Assembly (NCBI GenBank): GCA_017534965.1 | Contig: JAFXVA010000002.1 | Location: forward strand, 1-56,120 | Length of the DNA stretch: 56,120 nt | DNA from: Elusimicrobiaceae bacterium | GTDB lineage: Bacteria; Elusimicrobiota; Elusimicrobia; Elusimicrobiales; Elusimicrobiaceae | Direction of reading: 5' to 3' | Shown here: in pieces, positions 13,187 to 31,681 of the stretch | Numbering within the stretch: the stretch's first letter is position 1 | Layout of the letters: each line of letters begins with the position of its first letter | Position numbers and translations under genes: made by a program | Notes under the pieces: model-generated | Database searches by the model: none | What the model was told of the DNA's origin: nothing | Seen by the model: only the letters and a program-made list of their open reading frames with translations

Positions 13187-13471
13187 TTAATTAAATTTAC
13201 TGCGGCTATATTTGCCGTCTGTGCAGATGATTACACCTGCAACTTCTAAACTAAATAAAACTGCACTTAACTCCGTTATATCCAAATCTGCTTCTAGCGA
13301 AAGTTCATCAATATTTTTAGAACCCTCGCCAATTAAATCAACAATTTTTTGTTCCTGCTCTGTTAAGGGCTCACTTGGGGCCTTACTTTCATTATAGAGT
13401 TTTTTTACCTTAAGGCCAAATTTTTTTGTGCTGGGGATAGCATCAATTATATCTTTTGCCGATAGAACCAT
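13187..13471 (-). CDS. Detached C-terminal winged-helix part of DprA
   Basis: A 94-residue frame in exactly the same reading frame as the upstream dprA part and separated from it by one TAA codon plus six sense codons. Reading through the TAA gives NK, stop, IKEGAG, MVLSAKDII, which matches the usual DprA continuation NK(L)IKEGA..V.SA.DI. Residues 35-94 resemble the C-terminal winged helix of DprA (EQKIVDLIGEGSKNIDELS). It could be translated on its own from the ATG at 13471, since a GGA-rich stretch lies upstream. Otherwise it is only made by read-through, or it is dead coding sequence. Confidence 0.75.
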   Translation of the reverse strand: MVLSAKDIIDAIPSTKKFGLKVKKLYNESKAPSEPLTEQEQKIVDLIGEGSKNIDELSLEADLDITELSAVLFSLEVAGVIICTDGKYSRSKFN

Positions 13472-13489
13472 ACCCGCCCCTTCCTTAAT

Positions 13490-14305
13490 TTATTTATTTG
13501 GTCCGCCGGAGGTTGGGCTGTCAATCGGACCGGGAACAGCCATAACATCAAGCCCTTGGTCAAGGGCCATTTTTGCTGTTATTAAAGCGCCGCTTTTAAC
13601 TTCGCCTTCTACTACTACAACTAAATCCGAAAGCCCTGCAATAAGGCGGTTTCTTCTTGGAAAATGGTGCGCTAAAGGCGGAGCGTCAAAAGGAAGTTCA
13701 GAAATTATTGCACCGCCAGTATCTAAAATTGCTCTTGCAAGTTCGCGGTTTTCAGCCGGATAGCAACGCCCTATACCTGTGCCGATTAAAGCCCAAGTTG
13801 CACTTTGATTTTTAACTGCTTCAGCGTGAACAACACTATCAATGCCGCGCGCAAGTCCGCTTACTAAAACAATTTCGCTTTGCGCAAGATCCCCTGCAAG
13901 TTGCGTAGCAGCGCGCCTGCCGTAAGGTGATATTTTGCGTGTCCCGACCATACCGACAGAAGCTCTCTCACTATCGTTCAAATCACCGCGGACATAAATT
14001 AAAATTGGGGCTTCCTTAATTTCGGTTAATCTTTTAGGAAAATCCTCTTCGCCGTTAAATAAAATCTTACCGCCGACTTTTTCTGTTTTTTCTATTTCTT
14101 TTTCAGCGTCAAGCATAGCGCAAGATTTTAAAAAATTCTCCGCACTTTCAAGTGAAATTTTACCTTCTTTACTAATAGTCTTAGCATCTTGTTTTAAAAG
14201 TTCGCAAGCACTGCCGAAAATTTCTATCATTTGCATAAGCCAATCGGCGCGCAAATAACTAAAAGAGTTAACTTTTATACGGGCAAGTTGTTCTTCAAAT
14301 CTCAT
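13490..14305 (-). CDS. dprA: DprA, DNA-processing protein (cut short by in-frame TAA)
   Basis: DprA binds incoming single-stranded DNA during transformation and loads RecA. The frame encodes an N-terminal helical region (residues 1-75) and the full Rossmann fold. Family signatures are MVGTRKISPYGRR, SGLARGIDSVVH, AVPGPIDSPTSGGPN and the ALITAKMALDQG helix. It stops at residue 271, right after GGPNK, exactly where family members continue with (L)IKEGA. The missing C-terminal part lies immediately downstream in the same frame. The likely cause is a TTA-to-TAA change at 13490-13492, or a sequencing error. It overlaps comM by 4 bases. The Rossmann core looks intact, so function may be partly kept. 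Confidence 0.88.
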   Translation of the reverse strand: MRFEEQLARIKVNSFSYLRADWLMQMIEIFGSACELLKQDAKTISKEGKISLESAENFLKSCAMLDAEKEIEKTEKVGGKILFNGEEDFPKRLTEIKEAPILIYVRGDLNDSERASVGMVGTRKISPYGRRAATQLAGDLAQSEIVLVSGLARGIDSVVHAEAVKNQSATWALIGTGIGRCYPAENRELARAILDTGGAIISELPFDAPPLAHHFPRRNRLIAGLSDLVVVVEGEVKSGALITAKMALDQGLDVMAVPGPIDSPTSGGPNK

Positions 14306-15843
14306 ATATCTCTAACCCCTTTTCTGTCTAAAGGTCTATATTGAAAAACTTCCATAAGATGCTCTCTTTTAATATCTTTAGAACCCTCTAAATCTGCAAT
14401 AGTGCGCGCTGTTTTTAAAATTTTATCAAGACTTCTGGCCGAAAGGCCAAGTTTCTTCATAGCAAGTTCCAAAACTTGTGCGCCGTCTTTTGGTAAAGCA
14501 CAAAATTCTTTTATCTGAGCAACACTCATAAAAGCATTTGCCGTTGTGGCAGTTCCTTTAAAACGCTCTTTTTGGATTTTTCTGGCTGCTATAACTTTTT
14601 CTCTGATTTCTTTACTTGTCGGGCCTTGGGCCTTTTTTTCCCAATCGCTAAAATTAACAGGCAAAAGATTAACCGTTAAATCAATTCTATCTAAAAGCGG
14701 ACCTGAGATTTTTGCTTTATAGCGACTAATTTGAACAGGCGTACAATTACACACTTTAACATTATGCCCGTGATAGCCGCAAGGGCAAGGATTCATTGCG
14801 GCAATAAGTGTAAATTTAGCAGGAAAAGTCAAAGTTTCTTTTGCTCTTGCTATTGTCACTTTAAAAGTTTCCAAAGGTTCTCTTAAGACTTCAAGCGAAG
14901 TTCTTGAAAACTCGGCAAATTCATCTAAAAACAAAACGCCGTTATGGGCAAGACTGACTTCTCCCGGTCTTGGATTTTGCCCCCCACCTACCAAAGCAAT
15001 ATTTGAAATTGTGTGGTGCGGATCTCTAAAAGGTCTTTGAAAATTACCTTTTCTTTTATTTAAAAGACCGCAGACAGAATAAATCTGCAAAATTTCAAGC
15101 ATTTCATCTTTTTCAAGCGGTGGCAAAATAGTTGCAAATCTTTTTGCAAGCATACTTTTGCCTGTTCCGGGCGGTCCCATCATTAAAACATTATGACCGC
15201 CAGCTGCGGCAATTTCAAGTGCCCTTTTAGCTAAAGTTTGGCCTTTAACTTCACTAAAATCTTCTGTGTAAACTTCTTGTAAAGTCAGTTTTTCTTCTGT
15301 TTCTGTTTGCTCTTGTTCAAAAGGGGTTTTCTCTTCAAGTAAATCAACAACTTGCCTTAAATTTTGCGCACTGAAACAAGCCATAGAAGCATATTTTGCT
15401 TCTTCTAAATTATCTTTAGAAATAACGGCCTTTTTCTTGCCTTTACGATCTAAAGCAATAAGCATAGGCAAAACGCCCGCACAGCCGTGCACTTTGCCCG
15501 TTAAGCCAAGAGAACCGATAAAAACATAGTGTTTTAAATTTTCTATTGCTCTGTCAGATAATTGACCGCTTGCGCCCAAAATACCAAGAGCAATAGGTAA
15601 ATCAAAATGAGTTCCGGATTTTTTAATTTCGGCAGGCACTAAATTTATTGTTATTTTTTTTACGGGAGAATCAAACCCGCTGTTTCTTATAGCAGCAAGA
15701 ACTCTATCTTTAGCTTCTTTTACTTCTTGGTCCGGCAAGCCAACTAAAGTTAAAGAAGGCATACCGGCAGCTATATCAACTTCAACCTTAACAATATAAC
15801 CTTCTATCCCTTTTAAACAAGCCGAAGTAAGTGAACAAAGCAT
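14302..15843 (-). CDS. comM: ComM/YifB-type Mg-chelatase-like AAA+ ATPase
   Basis: A hexameric helicase-like ATPase that promotes branch migration of transformed DNA in species where it has been studied. The N-terminal Lon-like domain (VGLPDQEVKEAKDRVLAAIRN, residues 1-170) is followed by the AAA+ core. That core has Walker A GPPGTGKSMLAKR, a DEFAEF Walker B and the Cys-rich AAMNPCPCGYHG block, plus the C-terminal QISRYKAKISGPLLDRIDL with its Arg finger region. The length of 513 residues is normal. It is followed by dprA with an ATGA overlap, a functional pairing for natural transformation. One base separates it from the lipoprotein gene before it. Confidence 0.93.
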   Translation of the reverse strand: MLCSLTSACLKGIEGYIVKVEVDIAAGMPSLTLVGLPDQEVKEAKDRVLAAIRNSGFDSPVKKITINLVPAEIKKSGTHFDLPIALGILGASGQLSDRAIENLKHYVFIGSLGLTGKVHGCAGVLPMLIALDRKGKKKAVISKDNLEEAKYASMACFSAQNLRQVVDLLEEKTPFEQEQTETEEKLTLQEVYTEDFSEVKGQTLAKRALEIAAAGGHNVLMMGPPGTGKSMLAKRFATILPPLEKDEMLEILQIYSVCGLLNKRKGNFQRPFRDPHHTISNIALVGGGQNPRPGEVSLAHNGVLFLDEFAEFSRTSLEVLREPLETFKVTIARAKETLTFPAKFTLIAAMNPCPCGYHGHNVKVCNCTPVQISRYKAKISGPLLDRIDLTVNLLPVNFSDWEKKAQGPTSKEIREKVIAARKIQKERFKGTATTANAFMSVAQIKEFCALPKDGAQVLELAMKKLGLSARSLDKILKTARTIADLEGSKDIKREHLMEVFQYRPLDRKGVRDI

Positions 15844-15844
15844 A

Positions 15845-16948
15845 TTAGATAAAAACCATCTCTACTGCATCAGGAGTAGTATTTAAAATAGTAAAGTTAT
15901 TATAATATTTTCTAATAATCTTTGCGGAAAATTCTTCCGAAGTAGCGACATTGGCCTGAACATCAAAAGTAGCATTGGAATTTACATATTTAACTAAGAC
16001 AAAATCTTCCACTTCTTTTAATTCTCTTAAAATTGTTTGCAATTTTTCAAGCCGTTGAATAGTGTTAACATCTTTTATTATAAACTTAAAAGTTTTTGCA
16101 CTGTTAATAGAAGCATTTATCGGCTCAATTAATTCTTTAGCAGCTTCAAAGCAGGCATTACCTAAAGCTTTTTGATAAGCCATTGTTTCATCCGCATCAA
16201 GACCGCTTGCACTTTGAGAGTTTTGTTCAATTACTTTATAATTATTTGTGCCAAGGGCAATAATATTTGCTTTTGCTCTTACTGGTTTAAATGTGGTGGA
16301 AAGTTGAGCAGCACTTTCAATATTATTTGCCGAATCATCGGCAATAACAGCAAAACGGACCCCTTCCTTTTTGGCTTTATCAACAATAGTTGTATTATTT
16401 TCTATATTATTTTGGCTCAAATTACCGCCATCAATTAAAGTATAGGGCTGGTTTTTAAAGGCCTTATAAATACCCTGTTTACAATATTGATTTAAAGAAA
16501 CTTCCTCTTTTTCCATTTCTCTTGTTGCAATAAAAATATTAGTTTTTTTGACATAAGAAGAATCTTGTAAATTCTTAATTTTAGTAGCGAGGTTACTTAC
16601 CAAAATCATCACCCGGGCTTCAAGGATATAATTTTCCCCTCTTTGCTCGCCATGTTTGGTATAGGCCTTTCTAATATAATTATCCGGTTTAGATAAAATT
16701 TCATCTTGAATATTCTTTGGATATTCCATATTGCTGTTAGAAGATAAAAAGACATCAACCGCTTTCTTTAAAGCATCTTGCTTGGCAAGTTTAAAGGCCT
16801 CTTTCTTCATACCGGAAATATCTTTTGCATTATAAGCAACTTCGGCCTTGCCGATAACATACTCCCCTTCGCCTTTTGGGCCAAGATTCATCCTTTGGCA
16901 AGCACCTATAAGTAAACTTGCAATTATTAAAAAAGATAACTTTTTCAT
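15845..16948 (-). CDS. Lipoprotein, possibly FlgT/LPP20-like
   Basis: A 367-residue protein with a clear lipoprotein signal, MKKLSFLIIASLLIGAC, with lipidation expected at the Cys. Residues 30-110 (a region with AYNAKDISGMKKEAFKLAKQ) look like the N-terminal fold of FlgT/LPP20-type envelope proteins, where a conserved helix of Ala and Lys precedes a strand. The middle part (residues 135-260) has alternating strands and helices like a TolB-N or FlgT middle domain. This is a weak, pattern-based match. The start at 16948 is chosen for the signal peptide and the AGAGG box upstream. It sits 19 bases after the DnaA-domain gene and 1 base before comM. The true function is unknown. Confidence 0.6.
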   Translation of the reverse strand: MKKLSFLIIASLLIGACQRMNLGPKGEGEYVIGKAEVAYNAKDISGMKKEAFKLAKQDALKKAVDVFLSSNSNMEYPKNIQDEILSKPDNYIRKAYTKHGEQRGENYILEARVMILVSNLATKIKNLQDSSYVKKTNIFIATREMEKEEVSLNQYCKQGIYKAFKNQPYTLIDGGNLSQNNIENNTTIVDKAKKEGVRFAVIADDSANNIESAAQLSTTFKPVRAKANIIALGTNNYKVIEQNSQSASGLDADETMAYQKALGNACFEAAKELIEPINASINSAKTFKFIIKDVNTIQRLEKLQTILRELKEVEDFVLVKYVNSNATFDVQANVATSEEFSAKIIRKYYNNFTILNTTPDAVEMVFI

Positions 16949-16967: not shown

Positions 16968-19900
16968 TTATTTAAGGACATCGCCCAACACTTTTACATA
17001 ACTGCTGGGTTTTTTGATATCTTCATAAGGAATTATAGCACAACGAATCATCATAACTTCTAGCATATGCGTTAAGATATCGCAGAAATTATCTCTGATT
17101 GCCGGCTGAATTATTTTAGGATCCGGCCCTAAAATAATAGCAGCTTTCAAGTTTTTACTATCGCAAACATTGGCAATCTTAAAGGCAGAAGCAATAATAT
17201 GTTCTGTTGAATAAGCAGATTTCAAAGCAAAATTAAAACCGCCTTTTATACCAAGTTCTTTTGCGCGTTGCATAGTGGCATAAACAATCCATTTAAACTT
17301 ATCGGCACCTTCTTTAGGAAAGAAGAAACCAAAATTGCCCCAATTGGTATTTTCCCCTCTGCGGATTGAAAGCGGACTTGATAAATCCAAACTTTCAAGT
17401 TGGCTTGTGGAATCTTCACCTGTAATTGCGGTAATATAATTTAACAATTGTTCATAAGAAATAGACATACTGCTACTATCTTTTATGCGTCTTGCTAAAA
17501 CTTTTGCTCTCTTAATATCTTTGGCAATCATACCTAAAGTTAAATTTTCTCTACCGAAGAAACCTCTGCATTGGGCTTCGGTTAAGTCAATTTGAGCATC
17601 TAAAGTCATTTTGACATAAGCTTTCAAGAAATGGTTAGGTCTTAAAGGTTTCAATTCTGAAATCCACCCTTGGTCAAGTTTAAAGTTTGTTAATTCTTCA
17701 AACCTTGATAAACCTTGCGGCGGATATTTTGAAGAAATAACAAGTTGTTTTCTCTTAGCGACATAATTATTTAACACTTGGGAAATAAAATCTTTATTTG
17801 TTTCATTTACCGCCGTCAAATGTATATCATCTATAATCAAGACTTGGGCAGAATCTAAGAATTCTTTTACCTGATCTATAGTTCCGTTTTCAATTGCTCT
17901 TTGAACCCCTCTTGAGAAACGAACACCATTTGTAATAAATATTTTATCTTGAGAAATTTTCTTAGCAAATTCCGTTCCGATAGCATTTAAGAAATGGGTC
18001 TTTCCGCAACCGCCTTCACCAAAAACAAAGAAAGGATTATACATCGTTCCCGGGTTTTCTACAATAGACATAGCTGCCGCATGAGCAAAACGATTTGAAG
18101 ACATATCCATATTATCTAAAGTATAAGAAGGAACTATAGGCATTTCTATAGGCCAATTACTCTTTTTATAAACAGGAATAGAAGTTGTCTGAATAGTATG
18201 GTCAAAGCCATCAATTTGCTCTTGTTTTACATGTGGCATAGGAATAGGTTTAACAGGAGCACTAGGTTTAGCCGGAGCTTTTGTTTCTGCAGGAGCAGCT
18301 GGTGCTACAGGTGCTTTAGGAGCAGCGGGCGCTTTTGTTTCTGCAGGAGTAGCTGGCGCTGCCGGTGCTTTAGGAGCAACAGGGGCTTTTGTTTCTGCAG
18401 GAGCAGCTGGTGCTACCGGTGCTTTAGGCGCAACAGGCGCTTTAGGAGTAATAGTCTTTCTCATGGTTTTTGCTTTAGCAGCTTCTTCGTTTGCTATTCT
18501 AGCCTTCTTTTCTTGTTCGGCAGCAGCTTTTACTTTTAAAGCTTCCTCTTTTGAAATAGTAATTTTAGGCATAGCATTGTCTTTTTTCTTTAAATTCATA
18601 TCTGTTATATTCTCTCTATTTGGATTCTGTAGGTTTGCGTTTTTATCTTCAGAATTTATAATTTTCTGTGCAATAGCACTTGCTTGTAAAACTTGCTCTT
18701 CGGTTTTATTTCCCTTAACTATTGGAGCAGCCGGAGCAACAGCATTTGAAACCTCTTTTGCAACTATTTTTGCAGGCGGAATAATAGGTGCTTTAACATT
18801 CATTTTAGGTTCTACTTTCTTTTCTTCACTTTGTGCAACTGCCTGATCTGCTGGTGGAGGAACAACTTCTTTTTTAGGTTCTGCAACTTCAGGAGTATTA
18901 TTTCCTTCCTTAGCAGCATTTTTTAATTTTTCCGCTAAAATTCTATTTTGAGTTATAGTAATAACTCTTGGTGTAGGCATGGGGGTAGGTTCTTCAATTT
19001 TTTCTATTTTAGGTTGATCGGAAGAACTTTTATCATCATAAAATTGGCAGATAGTTTCAGCAGCAAAAATATCATCTAACGGAACTTGCGATTTTAAGAC
19101 CTCCCCTTGTTCTTTGGCAGGTTCTTTATCCAAGAGATTTTTAGAATCTAAAGAAACATCGGAAACTTTTTGAGCCCCAAGTTCTTCGGCAGGGAAAGCG
19201 GTGCCTTTAACAACAACCCCATGCATAGCTTTAGCTTCGGGTTTTGAAGCATTATTTACCACATTTGCTTTTGGGGAAATGGGGGCTTGCGCAGTTACTA
19301 TCTTTTTAGTAGCGGCATCAGTTTTAGCGGCGAGCTGTTCTATTGGTAAAGGACCGCTTGCAGCCGGCTCTGCTTTCTTGTTTTCAGAAGTAGAAACTTC
19401 TTTTTTCTTACCGAAGGAGAAAAGTCTTTTTAAAAAACCAATTTTTTCTTCTTTTTTAGCAGGTTTTTGCTCTTCTACTTTTTTGGAAACTTCCTTTTGT
19501 TCAGCTTTCGGTTCAATCTTTTTTTCTTCTTTAACTTTTTTTTCTTCAACTTTTATTTGAGCGGGAACAGGTCTTTCTTCTTTCTGATTTGCTGCTTGAT
19601 TGAAATTAGGAGGAATAGTTCCGGTTCTAGTATCTTCTAAATGAAGGGAAGGATTACCATTTAAAGTAATTTCTTTTCCATCACTTGAAGAAGATAGCCC
19701 CCCTTGGAAAGGGTCATTATTTCCAATTATATTGCCAAAAGGGTCATTATCTTCTGTAACAAAATCAAGTTTACCGCTACTAACTTGAAGCGGAGTTGAA
19801 CTTAAAGAAACATCTTTTCTGTTCATGGAACTTTTTTGGGCAATTTCTTCTATTTTAGCGCGGATTTTTTGCAAAATATCATCATCGTTGACATTTATTA

Positions 19901-20072
19901 GTTCAAACAAATGGGTAAGATTAGAAACTTTAACATCTATCAAAGAACAAAAGGAAGAAAGTTCCCTCAAAATAACTTGAGAATCGCTATCATCCCCTTG
20001 TATGCCAAGAACATAAGCAGAATTTTGTGTCCATTTATTTTCTAAAATTTCCCAATGTTTTATCATATTCAC
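16968..20072 (-). CDS. Giant protein with DnaA-type AAA+ domain and unknown C-terminal domain
   Basis: About 1,032-1,034 residues. Residues 1-100 form a small unknown domain. Residues 110-640 are low-complexity: acidic and Lys-rich, then three 18-residue Ala/Pro/Lys repeats. Residues about 640-885 closely match DnaA domain III, including SNRFAHAAA, ENPG.MYNPFFVFGEGG, Walker A GEGGCGKTH (near 685) and Walker B LIIDDIH (near 745). The box VII region, which in DnaA carries the Arg finger (ERLKSRF), reads ELTNFKLDQGW, so that Arg is lost. There is no DnaA DNA-binding domain. Residues about 900-1034 are an unrecognised alpha/beta domain. The start is the GTG at 20072, directly after the deoC stop, or the ATG at 20066. 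It is a DnaA paralogue, not the initiator; its function is unknown. Confidence 0.8.
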   Translation of the reverse strand: MNMIKHWEILENKWTQNSAYVLGIQGDDSDSQVILRELSSFCSLIDVKVSNLTHLFELINVNDDDILQKIRAKIEEIAQKSSMNRKDVSLSSTPLQVSSGKLDFVTEDNDPFGNIIGNNDPFQGGLSSSSDGKEITLNGNPSLHLEDTRTGTIPPNFNQAANQKEERPVPAQIKVEEKKVKEEKKIEPKAEQKEVSKKVEEQKPAKKEEKIGFLKRLFSFGKKKEVSTSENKKAEPAASGPLPIEQLAAKTDAATKKIVTAQAPISPKANVVNNASKPEAKAMHGVVVKGTAFPAEELGAQKVSDVSLDSKNLLDKEPAKEQGEVLKSQVPLDDIFAAETICQFYDDKSSSDQPKIEKIEEPTPMPTPRVITITQNRILAEKLKNAAKEGNNTPEVAEPKKEVVPPPADQAVAQSEEKKVEPKMNVKAPIIPPAKIVAKEVSNAVAPAAPIVKGNKTEEQVLQASAIAQKIINSEDKNANLQNPNRENITDMNLKKKDNAMPKITISKEEALKVKAAAEQEKKARIANEEAAKAKTMRKTITPKAPVAPKAPVAPAAPAETKAPVAPKAPAAPATPAETKAPAAPKAPVAPAAPAETKAPAKPSAPVKPIPMPHVKQEQIDGFDHTIQTTSIPVYKKSNWPIEMPIVPSYTLDNMDMSSNRFAHAAAMSIVENPGTMYNPFFVFGEGGCGKTHFLNAIGTEFAKKISQDKIFITNGVRFSRGVQRAIENGTIDQVKEFLDSAQVLIIDDIHLTAVNETNKDFISQVLNNYVAKRKQLVISSKYPPQGLSRFEELTNFKLDQGWISELKPLRPNHFLKAYVKMTLDAQIDLTEAQCRGFFGRENLTLGMIAKDIKRAKVLARRIKDSSSMSISYEQLLNYITAITGEDSTSQLESLDLSSPLSIRRGENTNWGNFGFFFPKEGADKFKWIVYATMQRAKELGIKGGFNFALKSAYSTEHIIASAFKIANVCDSKNLKAAIILGPDPKIIQPAIRDNFCDILTHMLEVMMIRCAIIPYEDIKKPSSYVKVLGDVLK
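18277..18438 (-). repeat. Three 54-bp tandem repeats inside the DnaA-domain gene
   Basis: Units start at 18277, 18331 and 18385, with the shared head GCTTTTGTTTCTGCAGGAG. Each codes for 18 residues of the type APVAPAAPAETKAP. The in-frame length makes copy-number change possible without a frameshift. The segment joins the disordered middle to the ATPase domain. Confidence 0.85.
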
Positions 20073-20708
20073 CTACACTATTTTTATCCCTGAACTTGTT
20101 CCCAGACGACTTGCGCCTGCTTCAATCATTTTTAAAGCATCCTCGCGGGTTCTAATTCCGCCGGAGGCCTTAACTTTTACCTTACTGCCTGCCGATGCAG
20201 CCATTAAAGCAACATCCTGTGTTGTTGCCCCTCCATCAGAAAAACCTGTAGATGTTTTTACAAAATCAGCCCCTACTTCAGCACATATTTTACAAACTCT
20301 TTGTTTTTCCTCATCGGTAAGGTAAGATGTTTCAATAATAACTTTCAAAATTTTACCGACACTTGCTTCCCTAACGGCTTGTATATCTTTTTTAACAAGG
20401 TCATACTCGCCTGCTTTGAGTGCGCCGATATTTATAACCATATCTACTTCGCTTGCCCCTTGTTCAATGGCGTGTTTTGCTTCAAAAGCTTTAACCGCAG
20501 AATCATTGGCCCCTAAAGGAAAACCTATAACTGTGCAAACTTTTACAGAAGAACCTTTCAAAAGTTCACTTGCATAAGCAACCCAACAAGGGTTCACACA
20601 CACCGATGCAAAGCTATATTCTTTTGCCTCATTACAGAGTTTTTCTATATCTTTGCGCTGAGCTATAGGTTTTAAGATAGTATGGTCTATATATTTTGCA
20701 ATATTCAT
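20073..20708 (-). CDS. deoC: Deoxyribose-phosphate aldolase
   Basis: DeoC splits deoxyribose 5-phosphate into acetaldehyde and glyceraldehyde 3-phosphate. The Schiff-base Lys is in [10 protein letters not shown] near residue 150. The second active-site Lys is in [10 protein letters not shown], and DHTILKP opens the barrel. The length of 211 residues is typical of the short class. It follows tpiA by 4 bases. The pairing makes sense because tpiA handles the triose phosphate that DeoC releases. The stop is directly adjacent to the next gene's first possible start. Confidence 0.96.
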
Positions 20709-20712
20709 AAAC

Positions 20713-21468
20713 TTATTTGTTATAGTTTATAATTCTTACAAATTGTTCTGCTACCAAAGATTGTCCGCCTACCAAAACACCGTCAACATCTTCTTTGGAC
20801 ATAATAGCATCAACATTTTCTGTTTTAACGCTACCGCCGTATAAAATACGAATTTGATCAGCAAAATTTTTATCAAATTGTTTTTCCAAAATAGTTCTGA
20901 TTGCTTTATGAACTTCTTGCGCTTGCTCCGGTGTTGCGGTTTTGCCCGTTCCGATTGCCCAGACAGGTTCATAAGCAATAACTAAATCTTTTAGCTCTTG
21001 GGCACTAAAACCTTTAAGTCCGCCTTCAATTTGTTCTTGAATAACATTTAAGGTTTTGCCTTCTTCTCTTTGAGCCAAAGTTTCCCCTACACAATAAACG
21101 ACTCTTAACCCTTGGGCAAGAGCCGCTTTAACTTTTTTATTTAAAATTTCATTGGTATCGCCAAATAAACTTCTTCTTTCGCTGTGGCCTAAAATCACAC
21201 AAGTTGCTCCGGCATCTTTAACTTGGTTTGGTGCAATTTGAGAAGTAAAAGCCCCCTTTTCTTCATAAAAACAATCTTGCGCACTAACAATAACATTACT
21301 ACCTTTTAAAACTTCGGCAACGGCATTTAAACTTGTAAAAACCGGTGCAACCATAATATCGGCATTATTTTTATTTTGTGCTTCTTTAATTGCCTGAGCC
21401 AAAGCTTTAGACTCCGCAATAGTTTTATGCATTTTCCAATTACCAGCAATAAATGATTTTCTTGCCAT
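20713..21468 (-). CDS. tpiA: Triosephosphate isomerase
   Basis: Interconverts dihydroxyacetone phosphate and glyceraldehyde 3-phosphate in glycolysis. Catalytic residues are visible: Asn and Lys in GNWKMHK, His in [10 protein letters not shown], Glu in [11 protein letters not shown], plus the phosphate-binding ILYGGSV. The length of 251 residues is normal. The ATG at 21468 has AGAGG upstream. A strong promoter lies in the 58-base gap after coaX, so the run from tpiA onward can be transcribed apart from coaX. Confidence 0.97.
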
Positions 21469-29502: not shown

Positions 29503-30630
29503 CTACTTCTCATACAATTTTAAAATCTGTGGAAATTCCTTTTTAAAAACTTCCACAACTTTACTATCAAAATCTGTGCCTGCTTTGGAAACTATATAAT
29601 CGTAAGCTTTCTGCAAAGGCCATGCTCTTTTATAAATTCTATTCATACAAAGAGCATCAAAAACATCTGCTACAGCAAGTATTCTTGCTTCTATGGGTAT
29701 TTCTTCCCCTTTCAAGCCGTTAGGGTATCCCGAACCATCCCATTTTTCATGATGAGCAACACTCATTTTATAAGCTGTTTCCAAAATTTTTGATTTAGCC
29801 CCTTTAAGTATTTTTTCACTATACTTGGTATGCTCCTTCATAAGTTCATATTCTTGCGGGGTCAATTTGCCCGGTTTAAGCAAAATATGATCCGGAATAG
29901 CAACTTTGCCGATATCATGCAAAAGACTTGCATTTTTTATATTTTCAACTTCCCCTGCGGAAAAACCTAATTTTTTTGCAAGTATCTCGCACATAGCACT
30001 AATATGGGCTAAATGGGTTCTGGTATCATGCTGGTCGCGATATTCGGCCGCAACAGCTAGGCGGTAAATTGTTTCAAGATTTGCGAGTTTAACTTCCTCA
30101 TAAAGCGCCGCTATTTCAATATTACCGCTGGCAAGGGTTGCAAGCAATTTTAAAAGACCTTCATCACGGGAGTTAAACGGAGTATTATCTTCTTTATTAT
30201 TTAACTGAAATACTCCTATAACTTTTCCTTCTTTATTCCTTAAAGGAACAGCTAGTAAAGAAGTTGTTTTAAATCCTGTAATAATATCTAATTCTTTAGA
30301 AAATCTGCTATCGCTATAAGCATCGGCAATATTTATAGTATGCCCGCTTTGCGCAACTGCACAAGCAATATTATTGCCATTTAACGGCAAATGAATTTCA
30401 CTATATTTTAAACCTTTACCACTTGCTATTTTAGACCAAAACTCATTTCTGCTTTCGTCTTTAATAAAAATAAAACAACGTTTAACACCTATAATTTTTT
30501 GTATTTGCTGGGCTATTAAACCAAGCAAAGTATCCAAGCTGTTATGGTGGGCAATTTGTTTACCAAATTCCGTTAGCAAGTTTAATTTTTCCTGAGCATC
30601 CAATATGCTATTTTGTTTTTCGTCGTTCAT
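29503..30630 (-). CDS. GAF and HD-GYP domain protein, probable cyclic-di-GMP phosphodiesterase
   Basis: A 375-residue cytoplasmic signalling protein. A GAF sensor (residues about 15-175, with CFIFIKDESRNEF and LLAVPLRNKEGKVIGVFQL) precedes an HD-GYP domain (about 190-370). The metal and catalytic motifs are complete: HDIGKVAIP, the HHEKWDGSGYP signature, and GEEIPIEARILAVADVFDAL. The family hydrolyses cyclic di-GMP or related cyclic dinucleotides; the GAF ligand is unknown. It overlaps the GlcF-like gene by 23 bases, so its translation is probably coupled to it. This links lactate/glycolate-type oxidation with second-messenger turnover. Confidence 0.9.
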   Translation of the reverse strand: MNDEKQNSILDAQEKLNLLTEFGKQIAHHNSLDTLLGLIAQQIQKIIGVKRCFIFIKDESRNEFWSKIASGKGLKYSEIHLPLNGNNIACAVAQSGHTINIADAYSDSRFSKELDIITGFKTTSLLAVPLRNKEGKVIGVFQLNNKEDNTPFNSRDEGLLKLLATLASGNIEIAALYEEVKLANLETIYRLAVAAEYRDQHDTRTHLAHISAMCEILAKKLGFSAGEVENIKNASLLHDIGKVAIPDHILLKPGKLTPQEYELMKEHTKYSEKILKGAKSKILETAYKMSVAHHEKWDGSGYPNGLKGEEIPIEARILAVADVFDALCMNRIYKRAWPLQKAYDYIVSKAGTDFDSKVVEVFKKEFPQILKLYEK

Positions 30631-31681
30631 CTGAAATCTGAGCTAAGGTTAAAATATCTAATTTTATTTTATGCTTTTTAGCAATTTTATCATAAAAAAT
30701 CTTATCTTCCGGACAAAGAGCAATCAGTGTTTTCTCTTCATATTTTTTCAAGGCAGAAGTAAAAACCTGTTCTTCTTCAAAAGATAAATCACGCCAAAAC
30801 AAATTGGCCGGCGTATGTATAATGTCCTGTGTAAACTCTACAAAAAAATTAGCATTTAAGCAACTAACAATAGATATATCTTCTTTTTCCTTAAAAGAAT
30901 TATTGTTTATTATATAGAGCGTATCTTTTTTTTCAGATTCTTTTATATTTGGCAAAACAAGTTTTATTTCTTTAAAACTGCTAATGTTTTTTAAGAATCG
31001 CCATAGAATTATACTATCGGTATAAAGTTCCGCTTTTTTATAAGATTTAACTTCCTTTTTTAAATTTTTAAGTATATAAGCAAGCAAATCTTTATTACCC
31101 AGATAAAGCGCCTCACTTAAATATAAACTATTTTTTACCACTCTTGAAGAAGGCAATAAAGCCATAGTAAAAGCCGCAAAATTTAAACCTTCTTTAGAAG
31201 TTAAAAGCAATTTTTTTGTATCTTCTTTTTTGGCTTGTTTTATTTTTTTACCAAAACTTAAAAAAGGAAATAAAGTTGAAGAATATTTATGATAAAAGTT
31301 TAAATACTTTGTTCTTGAATTTGATTTTGAAAAATAATTTTTTAATTCAAAAATAAATTCTTCCGTCTTTAAATCTATGGCACAAAATTTAGAACACTGC
31401 CCGCATTGTGTGCAAGAATTAATACATTTTAAGAGCATGGCTTCGTTTTGTTTAATATCAATCTTACGTTCTAAAATAAGATTCAAAAGTTGAATTCTTC
31501 CTCGGGGAGAGAAATTTTCCATATTACGAGTTTTATAGGAAATACACCCTTGTAAGCAAGCCCCGCAACGGGTGCAACGCATACTTTGATCTTTTAAAAA
31601 AGAAAGTTTTCTTGCTACAGTTATAGCATCAATACTAAAACCTTGGTTTCTCAACTGATTGTTTTTTAAGTTTAAAGACAT
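30608..31681 (-). CDS. GlcF-like iron-sulfur protein lacking the usual CCG domains
   Basis: A 357-residue protein. Two ferredoxin-like 4Fe-4S motifs lie at the N-terminus, CTRCGACLQGC near residue 36 and CTQCGQCSKFC near residue 91, as in GlcF-type subunits that take electrons from a flavin dehydrogenase. Later residues align loosely with the rest of GlcF, but the two CCG (DUF224) motifs that normally bind further clusters are not visible. The C-terminal half therefore looks degenerate or rewired. The start overlaps the GlcD-GlcE gene by 47 bases; the next in-frame ATG would cut into the first cluster motif, so the long overlap seems real. It probably partners the fusion protein upstream. Confidence 0.78.
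   Translation of the reverse strand: MSLNLKNNQLRNQGFSIDAITVARKLSFLKDQSMRCTRCGACLQGCISYKTRNMENFSPRGRIQLLNLILERKIDIKQNEAMLLKCINSCTQCGQCSKFCAIDLKTEEFIFELKNYFSKSNSRTKYLNFYHKYSSTLFPFLSFGKKIKQAKKEDTKKLLLTSKEGLNFAAFTMALLPSSRVVKNSLYLSEALYLGNKDLLAYILKNLKKEVKSYKKAELYTDSIILWRFLKNISSFKEIKLVLPNIKESEKKDTLYIINNNSFKEKEDISIVSCLNANFFVEFTQDIIHTPANLFWRDLSFEEEQVFTSALKKYEEKTLIALCPEDKIFYDKIAKKHKIKLDILTLAQISDERRKTK

Follow-up and report, generated by a model that had tools for sequence, protein, structure and literature searches.

DnaA is among the most conserved of bacterial proteins, and the DnaA derivatives known to us, Hda and the helicase loaders, all serve DNA transactions. In Escherichia coli DnaA, R285 is the finger required for ATP-dependent assembly and intrinsic ATPase activity, R281 stabilises oligomers and R334 is required for hydrolysis (PMC5742627). 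The DnaA-like protein described here is encoded in a 56,120-nucleotide stretch of an Elusimicrobiaceae genome (the window; contig JAFXVA010000002.1 of GCA_017534965.1), and it shares with DnaA (TIGR00362, PF00308) the AAA+ domain III, with Walker A and B and the SNRFAHAAA motif. Unlike DnaA, it is without domains I and IV, carries a new N-terminal domain (N-domain) and a new C-terminal domain (CTD), and is not the replication initiator of its genome. The helicase-loader-type AAA+ proteins IstB, DnaC and DnaI form a neighbouring AAA+ branch and gave weak sequence matches, but the window protein is much closer to DnaA and has no transposase or helicase partner nearby.

The open reading frame listed at 16968-20072 on the minus strand, 1034 codons from its GTG, is real and intact; the ATG two codons inside it is the likelier start (Table 1). 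The original prediction had recognised DnaA domain III in this large frame, and the Bac_DnaA model (PF00308) matched it with 109.8 bits (cut-off 23, E 2e-31), all of the quoted motifs being found. The DnaA equivalog model TIGR00362 gave 126.5 against a cut-off of 343.9, and no Pfam match to the DnaA N-terminal or DNA-binding domains (I and IV) was obtained in the window protein up to E 1. The long disordered region foreseen ahead of the ATPase was found as a linker of 552 residues (K 14%, A 14%, P 11%, E 10%), very variable in length among relatives. In a species of the same genus the gene is an open frame of 1625 aa (G001:C1:160400-165274), so that the linker varies by hundreds of residues, and a 922-aa open frame elsewhere (L134:5622-8387) has two tandem N-domain matches ahead of the ATPase.

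Table 1. Features of the DnaA-like gene and its neighbours; positions refer to the window and residues to the listed open reading frame.
Feature	Position	Strand	Basis or remark
DnaA-derived gene	16968..20066	-	preferred start ATG 20066 (MIKHWEIL); listed ORF 16968-20072 begins with GTG 20072
N-domain, residues 3-83	19824..20066	-	HMM E 3e-12; hhalign E 2.5e-15
Disordered K/A/P/E-rich linker, residues 84-636	18165..19823	-	composition and identity per block; open-frame lengths in relatives 511-1625 aa
DnaA domain III AAA+ core, PF00308, residues 649-803	17664..18128	-	Pfam match
Walker A GEGGCGKT	17997..18020	-	sequence; K invariant in all groups
Walker B LIIDDIH	17820..17840	-	sequence and residue alignment
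Changed box VII/Arg-finger region ELTNFKLDQGW	17664..17696	-	sequence and residue alignment
New CTD, residues 914-1032, (beta-alpha)4 fold	16977..17333	-	HMM E 4e-27; hhalign E 3.6e-12; AlphaFold of family member pLDDT 94
Downstream lipoprotein gene	15845..16948	-	likely ATG 16948; no Pfam match; 19 bases after focal stop codon
Upstream deoC and tpiA	20073..21468	-	flanking genes

The genome (1.32 Mb in 47 contigs, 96.5% complete) was searched for a true dnaA, and one other PF00308 protein was found in it. This is a complete DnaA of 456 aa (G000:C24:133173-133655) in which the Arg finger, sensor 2 and the signature DHTTILHA at the C-terminus are all intact, and the window protein is thus not the only DnaA of the genome. 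We conclude firmly that the window protein arose by recruitment of a DnaA paralog and bears two new domains. In another genome of the phylum (G086, L081), the true and apparently sole DnaA reads LLIADIQ at Walker B in place of LLIDDIQ. Anti-phage defence was considered for the window protein and set aside, PADLOC having given weak matches at the level of the ATPase only.

Both new domains were followed through the relatives with profiles. That another C-terminal domain takes the place of domain IV had been proposed before and holds: residues 914-1032 are a separate domain by iterated profile and by predicted fold. Residues 3-83, which had been overlooked, are a conserved domain as well; their profile had the window protein among its seeds. 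Because profile iteration can drift, separate alignments of derived and deep-branching members were compared by hhalign, and both domains were matched between the two sets (Table 1). Deep-branching members have the layout N-domain, linker, DnaA domain III, linker, CTD, and the same order of N-domain, domain III and CTD is met in the window protein. Each of the two domains also occurs without an ATPase. CTD paralogs of this kind sit directly upstream of the DnaA-like gene in 24 of 54 loci, and the N-domain was seen once as a split gene (L085) and once fused to a GGDEF domain (L143). The two domains are previously undescribed and have no Pfam family defined.

For structure modelling of the CTD, AlphaFold was run on a deep-branching member with 41 aligned sequences, the window protein included. 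The model (pLDDT 94, pTM 0.88) has four strand-helix units, a Rossmann-like (beta-alpha)4 arrangement. In a fold search the structures closest to it were Argonaute MID domains (MIWI MID, 4p1z, with TM 0.70/0.73 over the (beta-alpha)4 fold) and lumazine synthase. Rossmann-like folds are common. An Argonaute relationship was rejected: the CTD is 8-9% identical to the MID domain, no Pfam or PDB sequence match supports kinship, and lumazine synthase and other Rossmann-like folds were retrieved at similar E-values. The N-domain model reached pLDDT 88, and its fold search gave no match at E <= 0.001.

Matches were present in all 40 close-relative genomes; apart from the DnaAs, those from the window's family and from its sister family were full-length relatives. 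When 295 genomes from the phylum were searched, every one belonging to f1 or f2 had a match with an E-value of 1.5e-104 or lower. In most other families of either class a second protein, distinct from DnaA, was present; proteins of the same layout extend across most of the phylum Elusimicrobiota. Genomes of family f15 had as a rule only one match, the CTD was not found in six of them, and two of the f4 genomes tested and three of f5 lack it too. A DNA-pattern scan for the CTD over 84,980 species returned 26 loci, all in Elusimicrobiota; the scan was strict, as the window's own order was not returned, and distant relatives in other phyla could escape it. No CTD relative was found in 2.9 million viral contigs, and a viral origin of the domain was rejected on that ground.

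In a tree of 70 ATPase domains, the true DnaAs of the phylum formed one clade (99/86) and the derived DnaA-like proteins, the window protein included, a separate clade (100/99) on a long stem. Deep members were placed between the two with weak support. The node uniting deep and derived members is also weakly supported, so that it is chiefly the N-domain and CTD, common to both groups, that speak for a single origin of the DnaA-like family.

Walker A K178 and Walker B D235 and D236 are kept and nearly universal across members. Like DnaA, the deep members also retain sensor 1, box VII, Arg finger and sensor 2: D269, R285 and R334 are intact in 25/25 and R281 in 24/25. In the window's lineage the catalytic and finger residues that DnaA has are lost. 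The change reported earlier in the box VII Arg region was borne out, the R281 position being L and the R285 position K in the window protein, and two further changes were found, D269 to K at sensor 1 and R334 to G at sensor 2. No sampled member of the window's family or the sister family retains D269, R281 or R334; R285 is replaced by K, Q, E or N in most of them, with R kept in 4/13 members of the window's family. From these losses and the roles of the E. coli residues, we infer that hydrolysis and canonical head-to-tail assembly have been lost in this lineage. Compared with the sister species, the window protein shows 96-97% identity in the CTD, about 76-88% in the ATPase and 20-62% over most of the linker; selection between sister species is thus strongest on the CTD and not on the ATPase.

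The original prediction left two roles open, a DnaA-derived scaffold or an Hda-like regulator of DnaA. The second, in which the protein would act on DnaA at the replication fork, is now very unlikely. The window protein is, like Hda (TIGR03420), a DnaA-derived ATPase without the DNA-binding domain IV, and no Hda was found in the genome, but it is large and multidomain, scored 45.2 against a cut-off of 194.8 with the Hda model, and lies among non-replication genes, a genomic context unlike that of Hda. No clamp-binding motif was found beside the ATPase, the only candidate being QVIL at residue 30, inside the N-domain. With the Arg finger lost, it would have nothing with which to trigger DnaA hydrolysis. 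A DnaA-derived scaffold fits and is favoured: Walker A and B are kept, the residues needed to sense ATP between subunits and to hydrolyse it are lost, the CTD is under the strongest constraint, and the true dnaA lies elsewhere in the genome.

Genomic context was compared over 54 distinct loci. The position directly before a lipoprotein gene, to which the original prediction drew attention, is correct for the window, but its conservation is regional only (15/54 loci, class Elusimicrobia). Upstream, deoC and tpiA are probably functionally unrelated to the DnaA-like gene. In much of the class Elusimicrobia the gene order is DnaA-like gene, lipoprotein gene, comM, dprA, topA and xerC, with comM downstream in 16/54 loci. 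In the window, dprA (13190-14311, minus strand) has one in-frame stop at about 13490-13492, either a pseudogene or an assembly error, and an intact 372-aa dprA is present in relatives such as G006.

This order brings natural transformation into consideration, with the DnaA-type ATPase handling incoming DNA or coupling pilus retraction to DNA uptake. Besides comM and dprA following the gene in the window's class, a PilT gene precedes it in others, and in the related Endomicrobium the competence genes have been conserved and are expressed (PMC8809381). The other class, however, does not show the comM/dprA linkage; there, other genes follow the kinase described below. Domain IV is gone, two residues with which DnaA binds single-stranded DNA are replaced in the window protein (V211 by Q, R245 by T), and the dprA of this genome is interrupted. 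We regard a role in transformation as unlikely.

A PilT-family ATPase gene (TIGR01420), counted if on the same strand and no more than 3 kb upstream, was found in 27/54 loci, and a GAF histidine kinase gene lies downstream in 29/54, often overlapping. PilT is a partner only, as the DnaA-like protein itself is no PilT-type ATPase. These two are the deep-rooted neighbours of the DnaA-like gene, the cluster being present in deep branches. The linked PilTs form a single clade (SH-aLRT 98) apart from the remaining PilTs of the phylum in the sample, and the association is therefore old and specific. PilT family members were present in every tested genome carrying the DnaA-like protein. In many relatives, a microcompartment-like operon (shell proteins, aldehyde dehydrogenase and a PduL-like protein, identified by eye) lies just upstream of the pilT/DnaA-like cluster (L097-L107, L113-L115). 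The GGDEF fusion noted above (L143:3362-4804), an N-domain joined to a diguanylate cyclase directly upstream of a dedicated pilT, constitutes a link to c-di-GMP.

In the window and its sister species, no dedicated pilT, CTD paralog or GAF histidine kinase adjoins the gene. The GAF protein at 29506-30642 (minus strand) was considered as the kinase partner and rejected: apart from a GAF-like region, its other half looks HD-GYP-like and not like a histidine kinase, and it is likely a c-di-GMP phosphodiesterase. Closest to the linked clade is one PilT from the window's family that is not itself linked (L167, L172), for that reason a candidate displaced partner.

The linkage might be only historical, and the protein a general scaffold of the cell pole or envelope. 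The long disordered linker of variable length, the CTD as the most conserved part, the lipoprotein neighbour in the window's class and the mixing of N-domain and CTD into different proteins would suit such a role. Set against it are the dedicated PilT clade, which accompanies the cluster in many families from both classes, and G235, in which a lone CTD paralog still adjoins a pilT and no DnaA-like protein was found. This reading we consider quite improbable.

On balance, the DnaA paralog was probably recruited to a pilus-associated signalling or scaffold complex and, in the lineage of the window, decayed to a scaffold that still binds ATP. It would have arisen early in the phylum Elusimicrobiota, losing domains I and IV and gaining the N-domain of about 80 residues and the Rossmann-like CTD of about 120. 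It would form a complex with the ATPase-less CTD paralogs (often with the N-domain too), the dedicated PilT-family ATPase and the GAF histidine kinase, and the conserved linkage argues well for such membership. The complex would most likely control or position a type IV pilus-type machine. In the orders that branched off early and keep the catalytic and finger residues, the DnaA motor is probably ATP-switched and self-assembling; in the window's lineage the protein may serve as an ATP-binding, probably non-hydrolysing scaffold with the CTD as a conserved docking surface.

Two observations count against recruitment to a pilus complex. The window's own family has no pilT, kinase or CTD paralog beside the gene, so that its link to pili is by descent only. 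Furthermore, PilT is retained but the DnaA-like protein missing in f4, f5 and many genomes of f15, so that the DnaA-like protein is not needed for retraction as such. The linked PilT could also serve another type II/IV-like machine.

No paper linking a DnaA-like protein with pili, or reporting this Elusimicrobiota family, was found in the literature. As a tentative proposal, an initiator ATPase may have become the switch that organises a pilus control complex specific to the phylum, its motor decaying to a scaffold in one lineage while the protein persisted. The members of such a complex would be a PilT paralog, a sensor kinase, adaptors sharing the two new domains and, in one case, a c-di-GMP enzyme. 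If true, surface machines would here have a kind of regulator for which model bacteria offer no known counterpart. If linked to both a pilus motor and a sensor kinase, a derivative present across the phylum would be an example of a DnaA-type ATPase employed outside replication, and the series from intact to motif-less ATPases within one family would offer a natural experiment on what becomes of an AAA+ domain after hydrolysis is lost.
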